The position numbers and the translations under genes are program-made. A model generated the notes under the pieces. That model was not told where the DNA came from. It worked only from the letters and a program-made list of their open reading frames with translations, and ran no database searches. From a virus, in IMG/VR virus record IMGVR_UViG_3300042503_002645, positions 1 through 64,000 of that record: a stretch of 64,000 nucleotides of DNA. One strand, 5' to 3'. Of the stretch, positions 16,263 through 35,681 are shown in pieces; the first letter of the stretch is position 1, and every line of letters starts with the position of its first letter.

Positions 16263-17993
16263 ATGGACGGCTTTTCTGTGCTTGACCCGCTGGCGTGGGA
16301 TCCGTGCGCCATTAAGTTCCACCCGGCCTATCTTGCCGGTAATACGGCAGGTTGGCTGTCGAAGAGTGGCGCTGTTACTGGCACCGACCATTACCTATCC
16401 GGGCGGCTGTACGTCTCGAAGAGTGGCTACCTGCTCCTCTCGGTGCCCAATGCCCTGGTCCGCGGCGTGTTTGACGCCATGACGGCCCCGGGCGTCGAGC
16501 TGCCCACGATGAACGCCTTCAAGGGCGAGGCGGCTGACAAAGAACTGCTCAACGCTCACATCACAGTGATGACCGATGCCGAGGTCGATAAGATCGGCCC
16601 CGACAAGATCAACGAGCGCGGACATCACTTTCACTACGCCCTGGGCCCGGTCCGCGAGTTCTCGCCCAAGACCGAGAGCCTGAGCCGCGTGTGGGCGATC
16701 CAGGTCGCCAGCCCCGAGTTGGCTGCGCTGCGCAAGAGTTACGGCCTGTCGGCGCTGCCCAACGGCGACCACCAGTTTCACATCACGGTTGCCGTGCGCC
16801 GGAAGAACGTCCTGGGCGCTAACGAAGTCGCTAAGATCGACGGCAGCCGGGGCGAGCTCAAGGCGGCAGCCGATCACACGGTGACTTACGACTGCGGGTG
16901 CTCGGGGCCGTGTTCATGCCCTGATACCTGTATTTGCAAGCAAAGCGGCCGGTGTGGTGCGGCACACAAAGCAGCAGCGACTGAAAAGCTGCCCTGGCGC
17001 GAGCGCGCTGAGGTTTACGCGCGCGACCCGAACACTGGCAAGCTGTACGGCGGCAAGTGGGACAACGACGGCTCTTTTGCCCTTCCAGGTGGCGGCATCG
17101 ACCCTGGCGAGGATCCGGCAACGGCAGCGTTGCGCGAGCTGGAAGAAGAGACCGGTATCAAAGCCACCAACGCGCGCGTGTTGCCAATTCCGGCGGTGGA
17201 TTCGCCGTGGAGTGACGCCGTTCGCGCCGAAAAAGCTAAACAAGGGCGCGGTAACTTTGCCGGTTCGCGCACGCACTTTGTTGCTGCCGACATCGTGAAC
17301 CACCCCAAACGCGATGGTCTGGACTACTGGGCCGCGAAAGACAGGGGATACTACGACCCGGCCGACGCGCTAAAGATCATGCAGGGCGTAAAGAAGTTCA
17401 ACGTGCCTAGCATTGCCAACGCGCGGATGGCCGCCATCAACCATCTCATTGCTGAAGCGTCCAAAAAGCAAGCTGCCGCGGTCAAAGACGTCCTGTCCGG
17501 CGGCGAAGCGGATCACAAGCCCGATAGCGAGTTTCCCCAGGAGGCCTTGGCAGAAGGCAAAAAGCATGAGCGAGAACACACGGACAATGCAGAAGTCGCC
17601 GAAGAAATTGCCAAGGATCACCTGTCCGAAGACCCCGCGTACTACGAAAAAGCTAAAGCCCTAGAGAAGCTCTCGAACAGCGTTTACCTGAATCAGGCGT
17701 TTCAGGCGCTCAACCCGGCGACGATCGGCGGGCTCACCCCGTACGACCCGAGCAAACCGGTCTTCGAGAACATCCACCATCAGCTCGCCGAGGCCAAAAA
17801 CCGCGGCGACTTCATCCTGCAGTCGCAGCGCAACTACCAGATGTGGCGCGCGGCTCAGGACCCGCAGTATCGTTACCAGCTTGCCATGCAGGCCGTTCGC
17901 GGCGACATGCCTCAGCCCAGCGTGTTCGATCAGGCGATTGAGCGCTACGGCGACCAGGCGGCCGCGAGCCTTGGTTTTGGACCAGGGAGGTGA
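16263..17993 (+). CDS. 2H phosphoesterase-NUDIX fusion with DUF5661-like tail
   Basis: 576 aa. Part 1 (about 1-185) carries two H-x-T motifs, H99-I-T101 and H173-I-T175, as in 2H phosphoesterases, which cleave cyclic phosphates or 2'-5'/3'-5' linkages. A Cys-rich linker follows (about 210-231, nine Cys in CxC and CxxxC spacing), probably a metal site. Part 2 (about 245-400) is a NUDIX domain with the full box from G277 through E283 and R291-E292 to E295-E296-x-G298; it would hydrolyse nucleoside diphosphate-linked molecules. Residues about 425-480 resemble DUF5661 (HTDNAEVAEEIAKDHLSEDP). ATG 16263 follows GAGGTGACGGCC. Confidence 0.8.
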   Translation: MDGFSVLDPLAWDPCAIKFHPAYLAGNTAGWLSKSGAVTGTDHYLSGRLYVSKSGYLLLSVPNALVRGVFDAMTAPGVELPTMNAFKGEAADKELLNAHITVMTDAEVDKIGPDKINERGHHFHYALGPVREFSPKTESLSRVWAIQVASPELAALRKSYGLSALPNGDHQFHITVAVRRKNVLGANEVAKIDGSRGELKAAADHTVTYDCGCSGPCSCPDTCICKQSGRCGAAHKAAATEKLPWRERAEVYARDPNTGKLYGGKWDNDGSFALPGGGIDPGEDPATAALRELEEETGIKATNARVLPIPAVDSPWSDAVRAEKAKQGRGNFAGSRTHFVAADIVNHPKRDGLDYWAAKDRGYYDPADALKIMQGVKKFNVPSIANARMAAINHLIAEASKKQAAAVKDVLSGGEADHKPDSEFPQEALAEGKKHEREHTDNAEVAEEIAKDHLSEDPAYYEKAKALEKLSNSVYLNQAFQALNPATIGGLTPYDPSKPVFENIHHQLAEAKNRGDFILQSQRNYQMWRAAQDPQYRYQLAMQAVRGDMPQPSVFDQAIERYGDQAAASLGFGPGR

Positions 17994-25987: not shown

Positions 25988-28900
25988 ATGCCAGACTCGA
26001 TTCTCTCTGGACCGCCGGTACAGCCGCCGACGCCGCGCGCGTTTGGTGACATTGGCGCACTGCGCACTGGCATCTTCGATCGCGCGCTGCAAAGCGCCTC
26101 GGCGTTGGAGCCCGTCAAGAACGACCTCCACACGCTGCAGCTTCACGACGTGAAGTACGCGGGGCCGGAGAAGTTCACAAAGGCGGACCAGAAACGCGCC
26201 ATTCTTACGGGCAACTCGCTGCACCGGCGGTTGACGGGGACCTGGTCCCTGCTCGACAACACCACGGGGCAGCCGATCGCGACTCGCCAGACCACGATCG
26301 CGCACGTGCCGTATCTCACGGATTCGGGCACGTTCGTGAATCGCGGCGTGGAGTACACCCTCGCGCACCAGATGCGGCTCAAGCCCGGCGTCTACACTCG
26401 CGAGAAGGACAACGGCGAGCTCGAGGCGCACGTGAACGTGCTCCCCGGCAAGGGCCGCATGCACCGGTACTTTCTGGATCCCAAAACCGGTGTGATGAAC
26501 ATCAACATCGGCCAGGCCAAGATCCCGCTGATGCCGCTGTTGAAGGCGATGGGCGCGAAGGATTCCGACATTCGCGCTGCGTGGGGCAACGAGATCACCG
26601 CCGTCAACATGGAGAAGGGCGACGCGGGCACACTCGACAAGCTGTACCAGCGGCTGGTCTACAAACAAGTTCCTGGTCTTGATGCGCCCGGCAAGCAACA
26701 GGCCATCGCCGCTGAGTTTGCGCGCATGGAGCTTGACCCGGACGTCACGCGGCGCACGCTGGGCAAAGACTACAAAAACCTCACGCCCGAGGCCATTCTC
26801 GACATCACCAAGAAACTGATCGCGCTGAACCGCAAAGAGGCCGACCCTGACGATCGCGACGCCATGGCGTACCAAAACGTCGTGGGCCCCGAGGACCTGA
26901 TCTCCGAGCGTTTCACGAAAGACCGCCAGTCGTTGCGCAAGCTGCTGTGGCGGGCAACGGCCAAGAAAAACCTCGACCACGTGCCGACGGGGGTGTTCAA
27001 CAAGGCAATCTCTGCGGCGCTGATCGGCTCGGGACTCGGCAGCTCGCTCGAGGAAATTAACCCGGCGGAAATCTTCGATCACCAGGCGCGCGTCACACGC
27101 ATGGGCGAGGGCGGCATCGGCTCGCTGGACGCTGTGCCCCAGGAATCGCGCTCCGTCCAGCCCAGTCACCTCGGCTTCGTCGATTTCTTGCGCACGCCGG
27201 AGTCGGGAAAAGTGGGCGTCGACATGCGCTTCGCTCGCGGCGCCATGAAAGGTGCTGACGGCAAAATCTACACGCCCGTCGTGAACATGAAGACCGGGCA
27301 GTCGGAGCTCAAGACGCCAGGCGAACTGGCCGACATGCCGCTGGCCTTCCCGGGCGAAGACAAGAGCGACATGCCGATGGTCGCGGCGCTCGTGGGCGGC
27401 AAGATGAAGTATGTCCCGCGCGAGGAAGTCCAGTTCTCGCTGCCGCACATGGACAACACGTTCTCGGGCCTGTCGAACATGGTTCCGATGAAGTCTTACA
27501 TGAAGGGCCACCGCGTGATCATGGCCAGCCGCATGTTCACGCAGGCGCTGCCACTGGTGGGCGCAGAGGCGCCGCTGGTGCAGTCGGCCATCGCCGACAA
27601 GGACGGTTCGAGCTACGAAGACGAGATGGGCGAGAAGCTCGGCGCCGTGCGCGCGCAGTTTCACGGTCAGGTGGTCTCGGCGGAGCCCGGAATGATCGTG
27701 GTACGCGATCGCGAGGGCAAGAAGCACGAGATTGACCTGTACAACGACATGCCCTTCAACCGGAAGACCTTTTGGCACCAGACGCCCGCCGTGCAGCCCG
27801 GCGACGTGTTCAAGCCCGGGCAACTCCTGGCGCACTCAAACTTCACGGACAAGCAGGGCACCGCGGCGCTGGGCAAGAATCTCCGCGTGGCCTATTTGCC
27901 GTTCCAGGGCAAGAACTACGAAGACGCCGTGGTGATTTCCGCGAGCGCTGCGAAGAAGCTCTCCAGTGAGCACATGTACCAGCACGAGGCCGAGTGGGAC
28001 GACAACTCCCGCATCGGCAAGAAGACGTTCGTCTCGCTCTTCCCGACCGAGTACGACAAGAAGACGCTCGAGAACTTTGATGACAAGGGCGCCATCCAGA
28101 AGGGCACCGTCGTCAACTACGGCGACCCGCTCATCCTGCAGGCCAAGACCAAAGAGACGACCTACGGCAAGGTCCACCGCGGCCGCGCAGGCAGCTTCTC
28201 CAATGAGACGGTCACTTGGGAGCACCACTCGCCGGGCGTTGTGACGGACGTCGAGCACACCGACAAGGGCGTGCAGGTCGTCGTGAAGACGCAGGCCGAG
28301 ATGCAGGTCGGCGACAAGCTGACCGGGCGTTACGGCGACAAGGGCGTGATTGCCGATGTCATTCCCGACCACCAGATGCCAAATGACAAGGACGGCAACC
28401 CGTTCGAGATCCTTGTCTCGCCGCTGGGCCTGATCTCCCGCGTCAATCCGGCGCAGATCGTGGAGGCGGCGCTTGGCAAGATCGCAGCGAAGACGGGAAA
28501 GCCCTTCAAAATGAAGGACTTCGACAGCACCGCGGATTACGTGGACTTCGCGCAGCAAGAGCTTGGGAAGCACGGCCTCTCCGATACTGAGGACGTTCTG
28601 GATCCTGAAACCGGTCGTAAGATCAAAGGCGTGCTGACCGGTAACAGGTTCTTCATGAAGCTCCATCACACGGCCGAGGCCAAGGGGCAGGGGCGCGCGA
28701 TGGGCAGCTACACGGCCGAGGGCACGCCCGCAAAGGGCGGCTCCGAGGGGGCCAAGCGCGTCGGCATGCTCGACCTGGGCGCGCTGCTCTCTCACGGCGC
28801 CGGAAAGGTCATCCGGGACGCGAAGATGGTGCGGGGCCAAGCCAACCCCGAATACTGGTCGCAGTTCATGGCCGGGTACACTCCGCCGCTGCCCAAGGTT

Positions 28901-30367
28901 CCCCACGTCTACGAGAAGTTCGTCAGCCAGCTCCGCGGCGCCGGGATCAACACCGTGCGCACCGGCACCAAGACGAACATCATGGCTATGACCGACAAGG
29001 ACGTCGATCAGCTGGCCGGTGACCGCGAGCTGCAGAACAGCGAGACGGTCGACTGGAAGGGCAAGCTGAAGCCGGTCAAAGGCGGCCTGTTCGACGAGCA
29101 GCTCACGGGCGGGCACAGCGGCAACCGCTGGAGCAAAATCACGCTCCACGAGCCGATGCCCAACCCGGTCATGGAAGAGCCGATTCGGCGCGTTCTCGGC
29201 CTGACCGAGAAGCAGTTCCGCGGCGTGCTGGCAGGCGAGGTCCATCTTTTCGATAAGACTGGCCCCGAGGCGCTCAAGGCGGCGCTGGGGCGGATCAACA
29301 TGCCCAAGGCCATCGAGCAGGCCCGGTTAGATATCAAATCGGGCCGCAAGGTGCTGCGCGACGCTGCCGTCCGGCGGCTGGGCTACCTGAAGGCCGCTGA
29401 GGCGCAGGGCGTGCATCCCGAGGACTGGATGCTCACGAAGATGCCGGTGCTTCCGCCGATGTTCCGGCCGGTGTCGCAGATGGGCGCCAGCAAGATGACG
29501 TTGGTTTCTGACGCGAACTACCTGTACAAGGAGCTGCTGGACAGCAACAACGCGCTCAAGGAAACGTCTGGCGCCTTCACCGAGTTCGGCGAAGAGCGGC
29601 TGGGTTTGTATGACGCCATGCGCGCCGTGACTGGGCTGGGTGACCCGACCCAGCCCAAGAACCAGGAACGCCGCGTCAAGGGGTTCCTCCAGCACATCTT
29701 CGGCAGCTCTCCCAAGTACGGCACGGTGCAGCGCAAGCTGCTCAGCACGACCGTTGACCTGGTTGGCCGCGCTGTAATTACGCCCAACCCCGACCTGAAC
29801 ATGGACGAGGTGGCGCTCCCCGAGGACAAGGCCTGGGACGTTTACAAGCCGTTCGTTGTGCGGGGCCTGGTGCGCCGCGGGATGCCGCGCATGAACGCAC
29901 TTGATGCCGTTGAAGGGCGCAACAAAGCGGCCATGGACGAGCTGCAGACGCAAATGTCGTCTCGGCCGATCGTTATCAACCGTGCGCCGGTGCTTCACCG
30001 ATACGGTATGATGGCCTTCTACCCGAAGCTCACCAAGAACAAGGTCATGGAGGTCAACCCGGTCATTACCAAGGGCTTTGGCGCCGATTTCGACGGTGAC
30101 GCGATGCAATATCACGTCCCCAGCACGGAAGAAGCCGCCAGGGAAGCCGCCGAAAAGATGTTGCCCAGCAAGAACCTCTTTTCGACGGCGAGCTTCAAGG
30201 CGCACTACGTTCCAAACAAGGACTATCAGGCTGGTGTGTATCTGGCCTCGAGTCGAGTCGACAAGCGGCAGAAGCCGCGGGTGTTCAAGTCCAGACAGGA
30301 CGCCATCAACGCGTATCACCGCGGCGACATTGACGTCGACACCCCGGTGCATATTGTCGATAGCTAA
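25988..30367 (+). CDS. RNA polymerase beta subunit fused to N-terminal part of beta'
   Basis: 1459 aa. The beta part (1 to about 1000) shows KNYEDAVVIS (from about 642), VGDKLTGRYGDKGVI (from about 774), LVSPLGLISRVNPAQIVEA, VGMLDLGALLSHGA (from about 925) and the C-terminal clamp PHVYEKFVSQLRGAGIN. The beta' part continues with KGGLFDEQLTGG (from about 1032), PVLPPMFRPV, LVGRAVITPNPDL, VINRAPVLHRYG, and the catalytic ADFDGD with D1367, D1369 and D1371 that bind Mg2+. It ends (DVDTPVHIVDS) just before the point where bacterial beta' continues with TTxGRxxLNExLP. The N-terminal zinc cysteines of beta' are absent. Confidence 0.95.
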   Translation: MPDSILSGPPVQPPTPRAFGDIGALRTGIFDRALQSASALEPVKNDLHTLQLHDVKYAGPEKFTKADQKRAILTGNSLHRRLTGTWSLLDNTTGQPIATRQTTIAHVPYLTDSGTFVNRGVEYTLAHQMRLKPGVYTREKDNGELEAHVNVLPGKGRMHRYFLDPKTGVMNINIGQAKIPLMPLLKAMGAKDSDIRAAWGNEITAVNMEKGDAGTLDKLYQRLVYKQVPGLDAPGKQQAIAAEFARMELDPDVTRRTLGKDYKNLTPEAILDITKKLIALNRKEADPDDRDAMAYQNVVGPEDLISERFTKDRQSLRKLLWRATAKKNLDHVPTGVFNKAISAALIGSGLGSSLEEINPAEIFDHQARVTRMGEGGIGSLDAVPQESRSVQPSHLGFVDFLRTPESGKVGVDMRFARGAMKGADGKIYTPVVNMKTGQSELKTPGELADMPLAFPGEDKSDMPMVAALVGGKMKYVPREEVQFSLPHMDNTFSGLSNMVPMKSYMKGHRVIMASRMFTQALPLVGAEAPLVQSAIADKDGSSYEDEMGEKLGAVRAQFHGQVVSAEPGMIVVRDREGKKHEIDLYNDMPFNRKTFWHQTPAVQPGDVFKPGQLLAHSNFTDKQGTAALGKNLRVAYLPFQGKNYEDAVVISASAAKKLSSEHMYQHEAEWDDNSRIGKKTFVSLFPTEYDKKTLENFDDKGAIQKGTVVNYGDPLILQAKTKETTYGKVHRGRAGSFSNETVTWEHHSPGVVTDVEHTDKGVQVVVKTQAEMQVGDKLTGRYGDKGVIADVIPDHQMPNDKDGNPFEILVSPLGLISRVNPAQIVEAALGKIAAKTGKPFKMKDFDSTADYVDFAQQELGKHGLSDTEDVLDPETGRKIKGVLTGNRFFMKLHHTAEAKGQGRAMGSYTAEGTPAKGGSEGAKRVGMLDLGALLSHGAGKVIRDAKMVRGQANPEYWSQFMAGYTPPLPKVPHVYEKFVSQLRGAGINTVRTGTKTNIMAMTDKDVDQLAGDRELQNSETVDWKGKLKPVKGGLFDEQLTGGHSGNRWSKITLHEPMPNPVMEEPIRRVLGLTEKQFRGVLAGEVHLFDKTGPEALKAALGRINMPKAIEQARLDIKSGRKVLRDAAVRRLGYLKAAEAQGVHPEDWMLTKMPVLPPMFRPVSQMGASKMTLVSDANYLYKELLDSNNALKETSGAFTEFGEERLGLYDAMRAVTGLGDPTQPKNQERRVKGFLQHIFGSSPKYGTVQRKLLSTTVDLVGRAVITPNPDLNMDEVALPEDKAWDVYKPFVVRGLVRRGMPRMNALDAVEGRNKAAMDELQTQMSSRPIVINRAPVLHRYGMMAFYPKLTKNKVMEVNPVITKGFGADFDGDAMQYHVPSTEEAAREAAEKMLPSKNLFSTASFKAHYVPNKDYQAGVYLASSRVDKRQKPRVFKSRQDAINAYHRGDIDVDTPVHIVDS
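29326..29339. other. GATATC palindrome, variant site
   Basis: GTTAGATATCAAAT, core with AT-rich arms but weak arm match, inside the RNA polymerase fusion gene (codons for LDIK). Confidence 0.4.
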
Positions 30368-30381
30368 ACACGGAGGTTTAC

Positions 30382-31110
30382 ATGTTCACGGTCAATCCCG
30401 AACTGATCGCGCTCGCCCGGCAGGCTTTTGAGAAGTCCGCCGTCGTGCCGTCGGATATGGCAATGATGGCAGCAGGCGGCGCGCCTCCGATGGGCGGCGA
30501 AGCCCCCGATCCGTCGATGCTGGGCGTCCAGGGCGCCGCGCAACCCGTGGACCCGGCCACCGCCGCGATGGGCGCTGCGCCGCCTCCCGGCAGTGATCCG
30601 ACCGGCGCGGCTACGGTCGCTGCGCCTCCGGCCCCAGCTCCGGCGCCGATGCCCCCGGCCACGCCGACCGGCGGCGCCCCAGGCCAGCAGAAGCTCAAGC
30701 CCGAGCAGATGATGCAGATGCTGGATTATCGGCTGTACAACATGCAACAGCAGCTCACCGCGATCATGAACGCGATGGGCGTCCAGGTCGCTCCCGAGTC
30801 GCTCGTCCTGCCTCCCGGCACGACCGGCGCGCCTCCGGCCGAAACGGCGCTGCCTGGCGGCCCGATGGCGCCGCCGCCCCAGGATCCAAACGCCCAGGCG
30901 GGTCCTGCAGCTCCCGGCGGTCCGCTTCCGCCGGGCGGGCCGATGGACCCCAGTCAGCCGCCCATGGATCCCAATGCCGCCAAGCAGGCGAATTGGTGGG
31001 ACCGCGTAGCCACGAAGTTCGACGAGCAGAATGGCGACGAGCCGACGGAGACGCAGATCAAGGCCGCAGCGATCGCCGCGTTGCTCCGGAGGCAAAACGG
31101 TGCGCGTTAG
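30382..31110 (+). CDS. Pro/Ala/Gly-rich protein inserted between RNA polymerase parts
   Basis: 242 aa. Apart from a short helical N-terminus, a central helix (about 108-140, with MMQMLDYRLYNMQQQL) and a C-terminal helix, it is disordered and rich in Pro, Ala, Gly and Met. A strong RBS (ACGGAGG) precedes the ATG. It sits between the two genes that share the beta' subunit, so it may assist the polymerase or simply be an inserted virion protein. Not recognised. Confidence 0.65.
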   Translation: MFTVNPELIALARQAFEKSAVVPSDMAMMAAGGAPPMGGEAPDPSMLGVQGAAQPVDPATAAMGAAPPPGSDPTGAATVAAPPAPAPAPMPPATPTGGAPGQQKLKPEQMMQMLDYRLYNMQQQLTAIMNAMGVQVAPESLVLPPGTTGAPPAETALPGGPMAPPPQDPNAQAGPAAPGGPLPPGGPMDPSQPPMDPNAAKQANWWDRVATKFDEQNGDEPTETQIKAAAIAALLRRQNGAR

Positions 31111-31339
31111 ACTTCAGCACAAACTTCAACCGCTTGAAACTGAAGCGGATAGCCTGGTGATTGAAGATCAGCAGGGAAATCCGATCTTTGTAGCGCTGCA
31201 GCTGCCAGAGGCGGTGATCTACGCCGACGCTGGCGAGCCTGATTTCCATTCGCTGCTGCAGCAGCTGGGGATCAAGAAGACCGTGGCGGTTACGGAAATC
31301 CGCCCGAAGCCTGTGCAGAACGTGATCTGGAAGCCCTAG
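31100..31339 (+). CDS. Small protein between RNA polymerase parts
   Basis: 79 aa from GTG 31100, with GGAGG 7 bases upstream, overlapping the previous gene by 11 bp. It reads as a small beta-rich domain (LVIEDQQGNPIFVALQL). It stops two bases before the beta' C-terminal gene starts, so the genes are probably co-translated. Function unknown. Confidence 0.65.
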   Translation: MRVRLQHKLQPLETEADSLVIEDQQGNPIFVALQLPEAVIYADAGEPDFHSLLQQLGIKKTVAVTEIRPKPVQNVIWKP

Positions 31340-31341
31340 CC

Positions 31342-33222
31342 ATGCTCAAGACGACGGCGGGACAAATCCTGCTGAACGAGGCGCTCCCGGAAGACCTCCG
31401 GGACTACGAACGCGTCTTGACCAAAAAGGAAATGGGGAAGCTCGCCACTACGCTCGCGGAAAAGCACCCGGACAAGTACCGGGACGTGATGAAGCGGATT
31501 CACGACGTGGGCCGGTCCGCGGGGTTCACCACGAACGGCATGTCGTTCGGGCTGAAAGATATCAAACCCACGCTGGCCGCCCGAGACGCTCAGCTGCGCG
31601 TCCAGCGAGAGCTGCGCAGCATTCTTTCGGATCGCCAACTGAGCGAGCAGGAGCGGTCGCTGAAGATCCTCCGACTGGCCAGCCAGACGCAACGGGAGCT
31701 GGTCGAGAAGGTCTACGAAGAAGCCAAGGGCGCAGATAACCCGCTGGCGCATCAGGTGGCAGGCGCAGCCGTCGGCAACAAGTTTTCGCTGAACTCACTG
31801 ATCGGCGCCGACATGCAGTACGTCGATCACAAGAACGACCCGATCCCGATCCCGGTGCTGCGCGGCTACAGCCAGGGTTTGCGACCGGTGGAGTACTTTG
31901 CGGGCGCATTCGGCACCCGGAAGGGCGTGATGGACCTCAAGGCCGCCACGGCTGACGCGGGATTTTTCGCGAAGCAGCTCACCCAGATGACGCACAGGCT
32001 GCTCGTCACCGACGACGACGAGCGCGATCAGGACCGCCTTGCCGTCGCGCACGACCGCGGTTTCCCCACCGACGTCGACGACGTTGACAACGAAGGCGCA
32101 CTTCTCGCCCGGCCGGTGGGGCCGTACAAGCGCAACACGATTCTGACGCCGAAAATCTTGAAAGATATCAAAGAGCTCGGAATCAAAGACATTCTCGTGC
32201 GCAGCCCGATGGTCGGCGGCCCTGATGACGGCGGCGTCTATGCTAAGGACGTCGGCTACCGCGAAAAGGGCAGCTTGCCGCCAATTGGCGACTATGTCGG
32301 CATTGCCGCGGCCCAGGCGCTTTCTGAGCCGGTCACGCAGGCGCAGATCTCTTCGAAGCACTCGGGTGGCGTGGGCGGCGCCAGCGCCATCGGCGGCTTC
32401 AAGGCGATCAACGCGCTTGTTCAGGTGCCCAAGAAGTATCCGGACGGCGCGGCGCACGCACAGGTAGATGGGCGTGTCCAGGACATTCGCCCGGCACCCC
32501 AGGGCGGCCATTACGTTCAGATCAACGGCCAGGATCACTACGTGCCTGTTGATCGCGAGCTGTCGGTGACGCGCGGCCAGGAAATCGAGGCGGGTGACGT
32601 AATTTCCGATGGCATGCCCAATCCGGCCGAGGTCGTCAGGCACAAGGGCATCGGCGAGGGGCGGCGCTACTTTGTGCAGGCCATGCAGACTGTGTTCAAG
32701 AATTCAGGCGTGTCTGGCCACCGTCGCAACATCGAGTTGCTGTCCCGCGGACTTGTAAACCACGTGCGCATGACGGACGAGCATGGCGATTACAGCCCAG
32801 ACGACATTGTTCCTTATTCGATGCTCGAGCGCGCCTGGGAGCCCCGCACGGGCAGCGTGACGGGAGAGCCCAAAACCCTGATGGGGCACTATCTGGAGCG
32901 CCCGATCCTGCACTACTCGATCGGGACAAAGATCGGGAAAAACGTGGTTGGTACGCTGGGTAAGTACGGCATAAACAACATTGAGGCGCACCGCGAGCCG
33001 CCGCCATTCCAGCCCGAGATGATTCGAGGCATGTCCAATATCTCGAACGACCCAGACTGGATGACCCGTATGCTTGGCTCGTACCAGCAAAAGGGGCTGC
33101 TCAGCAGCGTGCATCGCGGCGGCACCAGTGACACGGCAGGTAGCAGCTTTGTGCCCGCTTTGTCGCGCGGCGAGACGTTCGGTGCGTCGGGCGCAACGAG
33201 CGGATGGCGCCCGCAAACGTGA
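31342..33222 (+). CDS. RNA polymerase beta' subunit, C-terminal part
   Basis: 626 aa. It opens with TTAGQILLNEALPEDL, the block that follows the end of the upstream fusion in bacterial beta'. GFTTNGMSFGLKDI corresponds to the funnel start. Bridge helix and following helix: GLRPVEYFAGAFGTRKG (from about residue 179), then TADAGFFAKQLTQ and LLVTDDDE. Trigger-loop region: GDYVGIAAAQALSEPVTQ (from about 316) then SSKHSGG. The catalytic His is kept, but Met and Arg of the bacterial TMRTFH are replaced. The CxC...CxxC zinc site is gone (PMVGGPDDGG). It ends soon after the clamp segment. Confidence 0.95.
   Translation: MLKTTAGQILLNEALPEDLRDYERVLTKKEMGKLATTLAEKHPDKYRDVMKRIHDVGRSAGFTTNGMSFGLKDIKPTLAARDAQLRVQRELRSILSDRQLSEQERSLKILRLASQTQRELVEKVYEEAKGADNPLAHQVAGAAVGNKFSLNSLIGADMQYVDHKNDPIPIPVLRGYSQGLRPVEYFAGAFGTRKGVMDLKAATADAGFFAKQLTQMTHRLLVTDDDERDQDRLAVAHDRGFPTDVDDVDNEGALLARPVGPYKRNTILTPKILKDIKELGIKDILVRSPMVGGPDDGGVYAKDVGYREKGSLPPIGDYVGIAAAQALSEPVTQAQISSKHSGGVGGASAIGGFKAINALVQVPKKYPDGAAHAQVDGRVQDIRPAPQGGHYVQINGQDHYVPVDRELSVTRGQEIEAGDVISDGMPNPAEVVRHKGIGEGRRYFVQAMQTVFKNSGVSGHRRNIELLSRGLVNHVRMTDEHGDYSPDDIVPYSMLERAWEPRTGSVTGEPKTLMGHYLERPILHYSIGTKIGKNVVGTLGKYGINNIEAHREPPPFQPEMIRGMSNISNDPDWMTRMLGSYQQKGLLSSVHRGGTSDTAGSSFVPALSRGETFGASGATSGWRPQT
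31554..31567. other. GATATC palindrome, variant site
   Basis: GAAAGATATCAAAC, left arm AAA kept and right arm AAA instead of TTT, inside the beta' C-terminal gene (codons for KDIK). Confidence 0.4.
32160..32173. other. GATATC palindrome, variant site
   Basis: GAAAGATATCAAAG, the same AAAGATATCAAA form as at 31554, 606 bp away in the same gene (codons for KDIK). Confidence 0.4.
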
Positions 33223-33302
33223 TTCTGTAGGATGTAAGAGCTACGACACGGTAAATTGTTGCTTACGCGTGTCTTATGTCGTGCCGCACGGAGGTGGCTG
33301 CT

Positions 33303-35681
33303 GTGTACAACCGTAAGAAGACTGCGTCCTCGACGGCGCACTGGCTCAACGTGGTCCGCTCGCACAGTCGAGCCCAGACAAAGGCTGCCGCTGATTTCGG
33401 CGGCAAGGGCGACTCAACGTCCTTTGAGCAGGCTTTCAGCAACCTCGCCCACGCCTACCTCCGCGATTCCGCGCCCAAGCTTCTCGACCACGAGATTGGC
33501 TTCCAGCTTCTCGACCGTGACCGCGAGAACACCAAGGCGGTCGGCGTTTTCGCCTTCAAGGTCGGGTCGAACTGGCTTTACGCGCCAGTGTTCTTCCTGA
33601 ATGGCGATCTCAAAGGTCACGAGCTCCTGTACATCAAGAACCAGGACGTGTTCGTGCCGCTCAAGGAGAACTGGATCAACTATCTGGTCAACCGGAAGCC
33701 CAACATCCTGGGCAGCTCGGTTGAGCGGAATCTCAGCCAGCTCGGGCAGCGGCAGCCCGACTTCACCCAGCTTTCGCGATCCCCGGCCAAGTTCGGCTCG
33801 GCTAAGCCGACGCTCAGGGAGATGATGGCAGCGGTTTACGGTCCGTTCGCCAAGACCGCCACGATGAACACGGCGCTGGCGTTCCAGGAGGTCGGCCGCG
33901 CGCTGGACTTGCCGAAGTTCCTCAAGGAAGCGCGCCTCACCACGATCGACATGCTCGTGAAGACTTTCCAGGACGCTCCGGCCATGGCCAAGGCGTTCGA
34001 CGAGTTTCACGGCCTGGGCGTAATCAAGGAAGCCATCGCGCTGGCCAAGGAGCGGGAGAGCCGCCCGAAGATCGCCAGCGTGCTGTCGGAAGCCCCGGAA
34101 AAGAGCCCGGCTGCCGCCGGGCTCAAGATCATCAGCTACTCGGTGACGATGCAGACGAAGCTGCCGCCAGAGACGACCGAGGAAGACCAGGAGAAGCTTC
34201 TCCGCGACGGCGTGCTCATCCTCGACCAGCGCGACCGTGACAACGTCTCGATTCCTTACAACATTCAAGTCGACAAGAAGCTCTGGAACCCGACCGAGTC
34301 GGGCCTCTACGACATTCTCGTCAAGCCCGGCAACATCGAGCGGGTCTACATCGCCATGTTCCCGATGGGCGCGGCAAAGCGCTCCGATTTCGTGACCGTG
34401 GTTCGCACTGAGGGCAAGCCCGAGTGGATCAACACCCGGGCCGACCAGGTGTTCGTGGTGGCCTGCCCTACGGATGAAGAAAAGAAAGAGTGGTTCAACG
34501 GTCTGCCCGAGGCAAACAGCCTCCCCAGCAGCGGCCGATACATGCTGATCAGCGAACGCGGTGACGCCACCGTGCCGGTCCGCGTGATTCGCGAGTACGG
34601 CGAGAGCGAGTTCGGCGTGACGAGTTACGAAGTCCACATGGAGGACCACTCGAAGTTCCCGCCGAAGGGACACATCGGCCCGTGCTGCTACACAGACCCG
34701 CTGAACTACGACAAGTGGCGAGACGGCGTGCGCATCCATCTCAACGGCAAAAAGGGCTCCAGCCTGCGCAGCTCGATGGGCGACATCTTCGTTCCCGAGG
34801 GTTTCAAGCTCCTCAAGTGCGCCCCCGGCGAAGACGACGCCGAGACGGCCGAGGACCAGGGCGCATGCGGTTGCGGCTCGAGCGATATGCCGCCGCTGAT
34901 GCCTGGCAACCTGGCGGACGCCCAGCTCGAGCTGATGGGCAAGACGGCCAGCCTCGAGGTTTACCACAACGGCACCGAGGTGGTGATCAACAAGGAGGCA
35001 GCCCGCTCGCCCGTGGTGGCGCTGGTCACCCTCGTCGAGCACCATGGCCTGCGCGAGGACGCGGCACGCGAGATCCTCAAGCAGGCTGCGGCCAAGAGGA
35101 AGTTCGGCTGCCACGTGAAATACGCCGCGCCGTACGGCCCGCCGATGATGGTCAATCAAGGCCCAACGGCTCCGACTGACCCGGGTCCGGTGATGGGCGG
35201 CGAGACGATCATGGGCGCCGATGTTCCCACCCAGATGGGAATCGACATCGGCATGCCGGTGGCGGACATGTCAGCCAGCCTCACCGACCGGCAGATCTAC
35301 AACCCGAACACGCGCCTGGACAAGAAGGACATCAACAACGTCATGCAGGCGGCGCAGTCCGGGCAGAAGGAAGTGTTCGACACGGCGATGATCGGCAGCA
35401 TGCTCCGGGCTGTCCGGGACGACTCGATGGTCGACCGGTACATGGGCGAGCTGACCAACGGGCTCGACAAGCTTGGCCGCATTCTGTTCATGTTCTACTG
35501 GCACGGCGACAAGTTCGCGGACCGTTACGGTAAGTCGGACATGCCCGAGCTCGAGGACTCGCTGCGTAACGCCTTCGAAATGCTTGGGGACGTTATCCTG
35601 TTCCTCAAGCAGAAGACCATCGAGCCGTACCCGGAAGAGGCGGGGGCTGACGCCGACCTCTCCAGTGTGGCCAACGCATAA
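33303..35681 (+). CDS. Large conserved-type phage protein, probable virion component
   Basis: 792 aa, not recognised by function. I recall the C-terminal 110 residues (NGLDKLGRILFMFYWHGDKF, LEDSLRNAFEMLGD) as a conserved block in other large-phage proteins. The middle has CGCGSSDMPP and a beta-rich domain. GTG 33303 has GGAGGT 7 bases upstream, whereas ATG 33276 has no RBS. It lies between RNA polymerase and the head genes, so a virion or packaging role is likely but unproven. Confidence 0.7.
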   Translation: MYNRKKTASSTAHWLNVVRSHSRAQTKAAADFGGKGDSTSFEQAFSNLAHAYLRDSAPKLLDHEIGFQLLDRDRENTKAVGVFAFKVGSNWLYAPVFFLNGDLKGHELLYIKNQDVFVPLKENWINYLVNRKPNILGSSVERNLSQLGQRQPDFTQLSRSPAKFGSAKPTLREMMAAVYGPFAKTATMNTALAFQEVGRALDLPKFLKEARLTTIDMLVKTFQDAPAMAKAFDEFHGLGVIKEAIALAKERESRPKIASVLSEAPEKSPAAAGLKIISYSVTMQTKLPPETTEEDQEKLLRDGVLILDQRDRDNVSIPYNIQVDKKLWNPTESGLYDILVKPGNIERVYIAMFPMGAAKRSDFVTVVRTEGKPEWINTRADQVFVVACPTDEEKKEWFNGLPEANSLPSSGRYMLISERGDATVPVRVIREYGESEFGVTSYEVHMEDHSKFPPKGHIGPCCYTDPLNYDKWRDGVRIHLNGKKGSSLRSSMGDIFVPEGFKLLKCAPGEDDAETAEDQGACGCGSSDMPPLMPGNLADAQLELMGKTASLEVYHNGTEVVINKEAARSPVVALVTLVEHHGLREDAAREILKQAAAKRKFGCHVKYAAPYGPPMMVNQGPTAPTDPGPVMGGETIMGADVPTQMGIDIGMPVADMSASLTDRQIYNPNTRLDKKDINNVMQAAQSGQKEVFDTAMIGSMLRAVRDDSMVDRYMGELTNGLDKLGRILFMFYWHGDKFADRYGKSDMPELEDSLRNAFEMLGDVILFLKQKTIEPYPEEAGADADLSSVANA

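Follow-up and report, generated by a model that had tools for sequence, protein, structure and literature searches.

The 64,000-nucleotide stretch analysed in this work (the window) comprises positions 1 to 64,000 of the virus record IMGVR_UViG_3300042503_002645 in IMG/VR, belongs to a large tailed phage and carries two genes for the large subunits of a multisubunit RNA polymerase (RNAP). The first encodes a chain of 1459 amino acids (aa) that comprises the entire β subunit and the N-terminal portion of β′ (β′-N), and the remainder of β′ (β′-C) is encoded by the second as a chain of 626 aa. These two genes probably specify the catalytic core of one α-less, σ-dependent, bacterial-type virion RNAP, the parts of which were first joined, then broken once, and now reassemble.

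According to this reading, fusion of β and β′ in an ancestor of these phages would have produced one chain of ~2,000 residues. That chain would have broken once, a few residues past the last strand after the β′ double-psi barrel, in the ancestor shared by the window phage, Arash and the D69 group. β′-C, with the bridge helix and trigger loop, would now be made separately and reassemble with the fused chain in trans, and the β–β′ tether may stand in for the absent α dimer. Promoter specificity would be provided by a phage σ70-family protein that presumably binds the core. The fused chain, β′-C and σ would be packed in the virion and injected, and would probably start early transcription.

Architecture of the two genes and the break between them

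Pfam searches of the 1459-aa chain recognized Rpb2 domain 6 (1.2e-49) and Rpb1 domain 2 (3e-24), with a sub-threshold match to Rpb1 domain 1, and Rpb1 domain 5 was identified in the 626-aa chain (1.7e-23). On alignment with Salmonella β′, the fused chain stopped at the VKVRI strand and β′-C opened at the TTVGR block. The C terminus of the fused chain (DTPVHIVDS) lies 93 residues past the start of DFDGD, and the N terminus of the 626-aa chain, MLKTTAGQILLNEALP, corresponds to the next block of bacterial β′. An earlier note on this DNA, made from the sequence alone, had described β fused to β′-N with a separate β′-C and a break just past the double-psi barrel, the fused gene stopping at the VKVRI equivalent and the next β′ block opening the 626-aa gene about 1 kb further on. 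Because the alignment ends at the VKVRI strand and restarts at the TTVGR block, this anatomy was right, to within a few residues as judged from the open reading frames (ORFs), Pfam and the Salmonella alignment; the gap is 974 nt.

Features of the RNAP region and the σ gene beyond the window (window coordinates unless marked as record coordinates)
Feature	Position	Strand	Remarks
β + β′-N fusion, 1459 aa	25988..30367	+	β ~aa 1–1030, β′-N ~aa 1031–1459; Pfam, alignment, Foldseek
Catalytic ADFDGD of β′	30083..30100	+	aa 1366–1371 of fused chain
242-aa Pro/Ala/Met-rich protein between the RNAP genes	30382..31110	+	own ribosome-binding site; conserved in window clade
79-aa protein upstream of β′-C	31100..31339	+	conserved in window clade
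β′-C, 626 aa	31342..33222	+	starts at TTxG block (MLKTTAGQ...); Pfam, AlphaFold, Foldseek
Bridge helix and trigger loop of β′-C (GDYVGIAAAQALSEPVTQAQISSKHSGG)	32287..32376	+	motif alignment; trigger-loop His conserved
801-aa orthologue of Arash virion protein gp218	33276..35681	+	synteny; PMC10585845 Table 2
Divergent σ70-family gene, 262–270-aa protein	record 64052–64864 (L104:52–864)		52 bases past window end; PF04539

The three catalytic Asp residues of β′ (ADFDGD), the two active-site lysines of β (GDK...GxKG) and the trigger-loop His were all conserved in 100 % of the 54 split (including the three-piece enzyme L233), 39 single-chain and four bacterial sequences compared. Cysteine is absent from both the fused chain and β′-C of the window, and both β′ zinc sites have therefore been lost; the Arash group has kept the second site, as have 19 of the 39 single-chain relatives. 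β′-C was modelled by AlphaFold with a mean pLDDT of 85, and Foldseek matched the model to bacterial β′ (Thermus thermophilus 5x21_D, E 2e-26). For aa 950–1459 of the fused chain the pLDDT was 81, and the best Foldseek matches in PDB were cyanobacterial/plastid RpoC1 and bacterial β′.

Two ORFs, of 242 and 79 aa, are conserved within the gap between the two genes. Downstream of the stop codon that ends the fused gene, the window sequence has GGAGG and a new ATG, and β′-C starts two bases past the stop of the 79-aa gene. Across the window clade the corresponding ORFs encode a Pro/Ala/Met-rich protein of ~200–270 aa, the helical C-terminal part of which is conserved, and a small protein of ~70–90 aa; neither was found close to the polymerase genes in Salmonella phage Arash or Vibrio phage D69. 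No Rfam family and no terminator-like site on the + strand was found between the RNAP genes, and the gap between split genes ranged from 0.6 to 4.7 kb among relatives. In most single-chain relatives the break point is bridged by 2–4 residues, so that the split is exact; examples are DLVTIRG-LKTTVGK in L236 and DPILLQN-IRTTAGN in L235, where the window has DTPVHIVDS, a stop, and later MLKTTAGQ.

The two pieces could also be joined during expression, by frameshifting, an intron, trans-splicing or a split intein, in which case the working enzyme would be one chain. Single-chain orthologues do exist, and inteins and homing endonucleases are present in the RNAP genes of some relatives. Such joining is nevertheless very unlikely given the stop, the Shine-Dalgarno sequence and the two conserved ORFs after the break, the lack of an Rfam intron match, chain ends without intein-like sequence, the variation of the gap across relatives and, in Arash, a gap of 4.7 kb with several opposite-strand genes inside.

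Distribution of layouts and probable order of events

Scans of IMG/VR, one per protein, returned 28 and 70 loci with matching layout and nearly equal lengths, and the break fell at an identical place in nearly all loci that spanned both parts. The fused-then-split layout was also found in four cultured phages, namely Arash and the Vibrio phages D69, D181 and D148. Arash encodes a 1525-aa β-β′N chain and a separate β′-C, and its enzyme is ~31 % identical to that of the window over the aligned core. An alignment scan led by Arash additionally revealed phage contigs in which β, β′-N and β′-C form one ORF, mostly of 2000–2160 aa. The non-redundant phage sequences (≤90 % identical) comprised 53 split enzymes, in a few of which β is additionally broken, 39 single chains and one three-piece enzyme (L233). 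When prokaryote genomes were scanned for relatives of the fused chain, none was found, and so no hint of the host was obtained.

The window record is a 119-kb metagenomic contig that is probably incomplete, relatives reaching up to ~200 kb, which leaves some room for a sequencing or assembly artefact, or for a decaying pseudogene. The probability of either is practically negligible: the layout occurs in dozens of independent IMG/VR contigs as well as in the four cultured phages, which rules out an error or frameshift as the cause of the break (a possibility raised in the earlier note), and the catalytic residues are invariant. The same note had asked whether close relatives with this layout had been described; deposited records do share it, but their annotators never called it a fusion or a break.

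Several relatives showed further rearrangements. In the Arash relative L233 (5652–11970), β, β′-N and β′-C are three adjacent genes, a second break that undoes the fusion. A homing endonuclease gene cuts the β part of the fused gene of D181 in two (L005 3845–9413), as it does in D148 according to the search table. Inteins (Intein_splicing or Hint plus LAGLIDADG) were found within β or β′-C genes of relatives (L286:3097–10170 and L089:5859–8915), and large insertions without a named domain were present at the loci L020, L223, L072 and L222. The ~110-kb Acinetobacter phage Ab1-TPeters (L114) and Escherichia phage EP_H11 (L115) carry β′-C-like genes of 504–507 aa, and EP_H11 has a separate 522-aa β′-N downstream, the β′ break being slightly further upstream; no Rpb2_6 match was found in either record.

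The final maximum likelihood tree comprised 35 rows (LG+C20+F+G4) and was rooted with an outgroup of three bacterial rows; archaea and eukaryotes were not in the tree, and Carin-5 (long branch) was excluded. L107, L108 and L109 (OR844998, OR846602 and MT836236) had been considered as a phage sister group with separate β and β′ but were rejected. Ribosomal-protein genes flank rpoB-rpoC in L107 and L109, and ordinary cellular-looking genes flank L108; all three were for this reason taken as mislabelled bacterial contigs, and L107 and L109 served as outgroup rows. PHROGs 24349 and 25354 may include bacterial rpoB/rpoC as well.

All phage enzymes formed one clade against the three bacterial rows (support 100/100). 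The split forms, together with L233, also formed one clade (89/78), which was nested within the single-chain forms and grouped with the single-chain enzyme L235 at 100/100. The bacterial root was positioned among the single-chain forms, and a constraint placing the latter in one clade was rejected (p-AU 0.015). The nesting of the split clade within the single-chain forms indicates that the fusion preceded the break. The simplest history would thus lead from separate β and β′ in bacteria, through fusion in a phage ancestor, to one break.

It is quite unlikely that the split state is ancestral, as in a ϕKZ-like or cyanobacterial-type split β′, and that the single chains arose by later fusion. 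The β′ subunits of ϕKZ-like phages and cyanobacteria do also break after the double-psi barrel (PMC7598289), and the best Foldseek matches of β′-N were RpoC1 chains. The root position and the rejected monophyly of the single chains, however, oppose this order of events; moreover, β′ is unsplit in the bacterial sequences used, and the ϕKZ-type enzymes split β and are without a sequence-recognizable σ, both unlike the window enzyme.

A probable σ partner and proposed packaging in the virion

Neither α nor ω was found in any of 20 records searched, two cultured genomes among them, in which the positive controls gave matches. The window's own record gave no match for PF01193 (α), PF01192 (ω) or PF04542. 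Its own σ gene was recognized by way of a relative's orthologue, and subsequently with PF04539; region 3 was detected at E 3.8e-8, above the gathering score, and region 4 at E 1.8e-4, below it, whilst region 2 gave an E of only ~0.04, in orthologues. The statement of the earlier note that no α, ω or σ is visible thus held for α and ω, but a σ70-family gene lies 52 bases outside the window.

Orthologues of this σ were present in 20/20 window-clade records, in Arash (gp10) and in D69. The window-clade profile matched Arash gp10 at 4e-26, and two downstream genes are in common. A protein with σ70 region 3 was found in 17 of 20 split and single-chain records, most of the single-chain ones searched included, and in L235 and L289 the σ gene lies shortly downstream of the polymerase. 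The window phage's own σ70-family protein is likely to be the missing partner of the polymerase. Its gene, which is conserved throughout the clade, sits among tail/baseplate-type genes. Arash has a second σ, gp196 (L003 2498–3535), which gave a better match and includes region 2, and D69 seems to have one too; an ECF-like σ was found in a relative (G012, L119:1471–2229). The gp196-type and ECF-like proteins are possible later-stage σ factors.

Published proteomics showed the fused chain, β′-C and σ to be present in Arash virions (PMC10585845). The fused chain Gp206 accounted for 3516 spectra and 128 unique peptides, the most of any protein and above the capsid protein, followed by β′-C (Gp216) with 1210 spectra and 40 peptides; the σ Gp10 gave 467 spectra and 24 peptides with full coverage, the helicase Gp217 1148 spectra, Gp218 1149 and the portal 877 (PMC10585845). 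When divided by protein length (this work), these counts correspond to 2.3 spectra per residue for Gp206, 2.0 for Gp216 and 2.0 for Gp10, with 2.4 for Gp217, 1.9 for Gp218 and 1.5 for the portal. The ratio Gp206 : Gp216 : Gp10 of ~1 : 1 : 1 is compatible with a packaged complex that is roughly equimolar.

In the A3 scan, many loci have a portal gene (named from Arash gp204) in front of the polymerase, β′-C is followed in the split clade by an Arash-gp218-like virion gene, and a helicase homologous to Arash gp217 is located nearby in some single-chain and split relatives. By analogy with Arash, the window phage probably packages its enzyme.

The window enzyme might instead be a non-virion polymerase of middle or late transcription, its counterpart being carried over into Arash particles. 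The Arash authors themselves named carry-over as a possibility, and some replication and nucleotide enzymes were detected in the particles too (PMC10585845). This explanation is unlikely in view of the rank of Gp206 at the top of all spectra, above the capsid protein, the location of the RNAP genes among portal and virion genes, and the presence of Gp10 in particles where the second σ, Gp196, is mentioned neither in the main text nor in the table of the paper (PMC10585845).

Several points weigh against a packaged enzyme that was fused and then broken once. A single break has moderate support (89/78); because the single-chain L235 is sister to the split clade, a history with two breaks or with a re-fusion is possible; and the bacterial root sits on a long branch. 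Spectral counts differ from true stoichiometry, the carry-over named by the Arash authors (PMC10585845) applies here also, and the Arash enzyme is just ~31 % identical to that of the window.

Elsewhere in the window (16263–17993) a protein with 2H-phosphoesterase, NUDIX and DUF5661 domains is encoded, and the relatives L286 (3097–10170) and L302 (14360–18466) carry overlapping sets of domains (2H-SAK, DUF5661, AAA kinase-like) as fusions to their RNAP genes. These are possible injected multi-domain proteins.

Relation to known polymerases and implications

A class of multi-subunit RNAP-encoding Caudovirales (mReC; 97 contigs) was reported in 2020 by Weinheimer and Aylward (PMC7481178). Like the present enzymes, these come from tailed-phage contigs of IMG/VR and metagenomes, have β and β′ clearly homologous to cellular subunits, form their own deep clade and are surrounded by phage hallmark genes; they differ in that β and β′ were treated as subunits, fusion being mentioned in the main text just for crAssphage, with no fused chain, break or σ (PMC7481178). 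The window enzyme shares the cellular homology of β and β′ and the phage clade apart from bacteria (100/100). The mReC motif NADxDGD reads GADFDGD in the window; its N is present in 95 % of single-chain relatives, and G is commonest in split ones (43 %). The mReC capsid family PF07068 matched none of 15 records, the controls being equally silent. By its sequence the window enzyme fits the broad mReC class.

The closest counterpart in layout is the Arash RNAP (Gp206/Gp216/Gp10), which has an orthologous σ and all three proteins in the virion, its genes being 4.7 kb apart; the authors labelled the two chains 'beta' (Gp206) and 'beta prime' (Gp216), and mentioned neither fusion nor break (PMC10585845). 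The ϕKZ/AR9 enzymes likewise have a β′ broken after the double-psi barrel, lack α and ω and exist in a virion form, but their β is split too and unfused to β′, they have no sequence-recognizable σ and they are far more divergent (PMC7598289). Identity with this type was rejected, since the window β is whole and fused to β′-N and a σ70 region 3 protein occurs in its own record, as in the 17 of 20 records above; descent from ϕKZ-like enzymes was likewise rejected, on β structure, σ and similarity. The kinship implied in the earlier note finds no support: β is unsplit, the enzyme strongly resembles bacterial β and β′ in sequence, and single-chain phage polymerases are, by the tree, the source of the layout. 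The break site common to ϕKZ-like and cyanobacterial enzymes (PMC7598289) appears to have been reached here by a separate route.

Cyanobacterial/plastid RpoC1 and RpoC2 together make up a β′ that is broken after the double-psi barrel, but β is separate; the solved cyanobacterial γ chain (8h3v_E, 625 aa) extends ~67 residues beyond the phage break in the alignment. The crAss-like gp66 is also a single-polypeptide phage RNAP located in the virion, but is extremely divergent. Sequence domains place both double-psi barrels in one chain of the window enzyme, as in crAss-like enzymes, whereas the latter are too divergent for cellular profiles and the window chain is recognized by Pfam (Rpb2_6, 1.2e-49). 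The fused rpoBC of the Helicobacter type works with α and ω. In Helicobacter and its relatives β and β′ are tethered as in the single-chain phage relatives, but the enzyme is cellular and its β′ unbroken (PMC9696931). The RNAP of P23-45 is virion-located as well, yet fused to the tape-measure protein (PMC10770324).

Whilst polymerases of this broad kind have been known since 2020 (mReC), the fused and broken architecture, its polarity and the link to σ appear undescribed in the readable literature. No paper on a phage β–β′ chain of this type or on its break was found in literature covered largely without subscription journals and preprints.

What keeps phage multisubunit polymerases assembled in the absence of α is an open question (PMC7598289). 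The lineage described here holds single-chain and broken-chain states of one enzyme, with near-bacterial catalytic parts, a σ and cultured hosts, and the availability of both states, of σ and of cultured hosts makes α-less assembly directly testable. An order of events, fusion and then break, would also be provided for a break site that ϕKZ-like phages and cyanobacteria show independently, and the nearly equal spectra per residue of 'beta' and 'beta prime' in the published Arash virion proteomics would be explained. On balance, it is somewhat probable that a tailed-phage lineage injects a virion holoenzyme that is α-less, ω-less and σ-dependent, with a single β–β′ core that was secondarily broken in one sublineage and a tether that may replace the α platform. 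If so, these phages would provide a natural case in which tethered large subunits possibly replace assembly on α, and a virion holoenzyme with a true σ70-family subunit.

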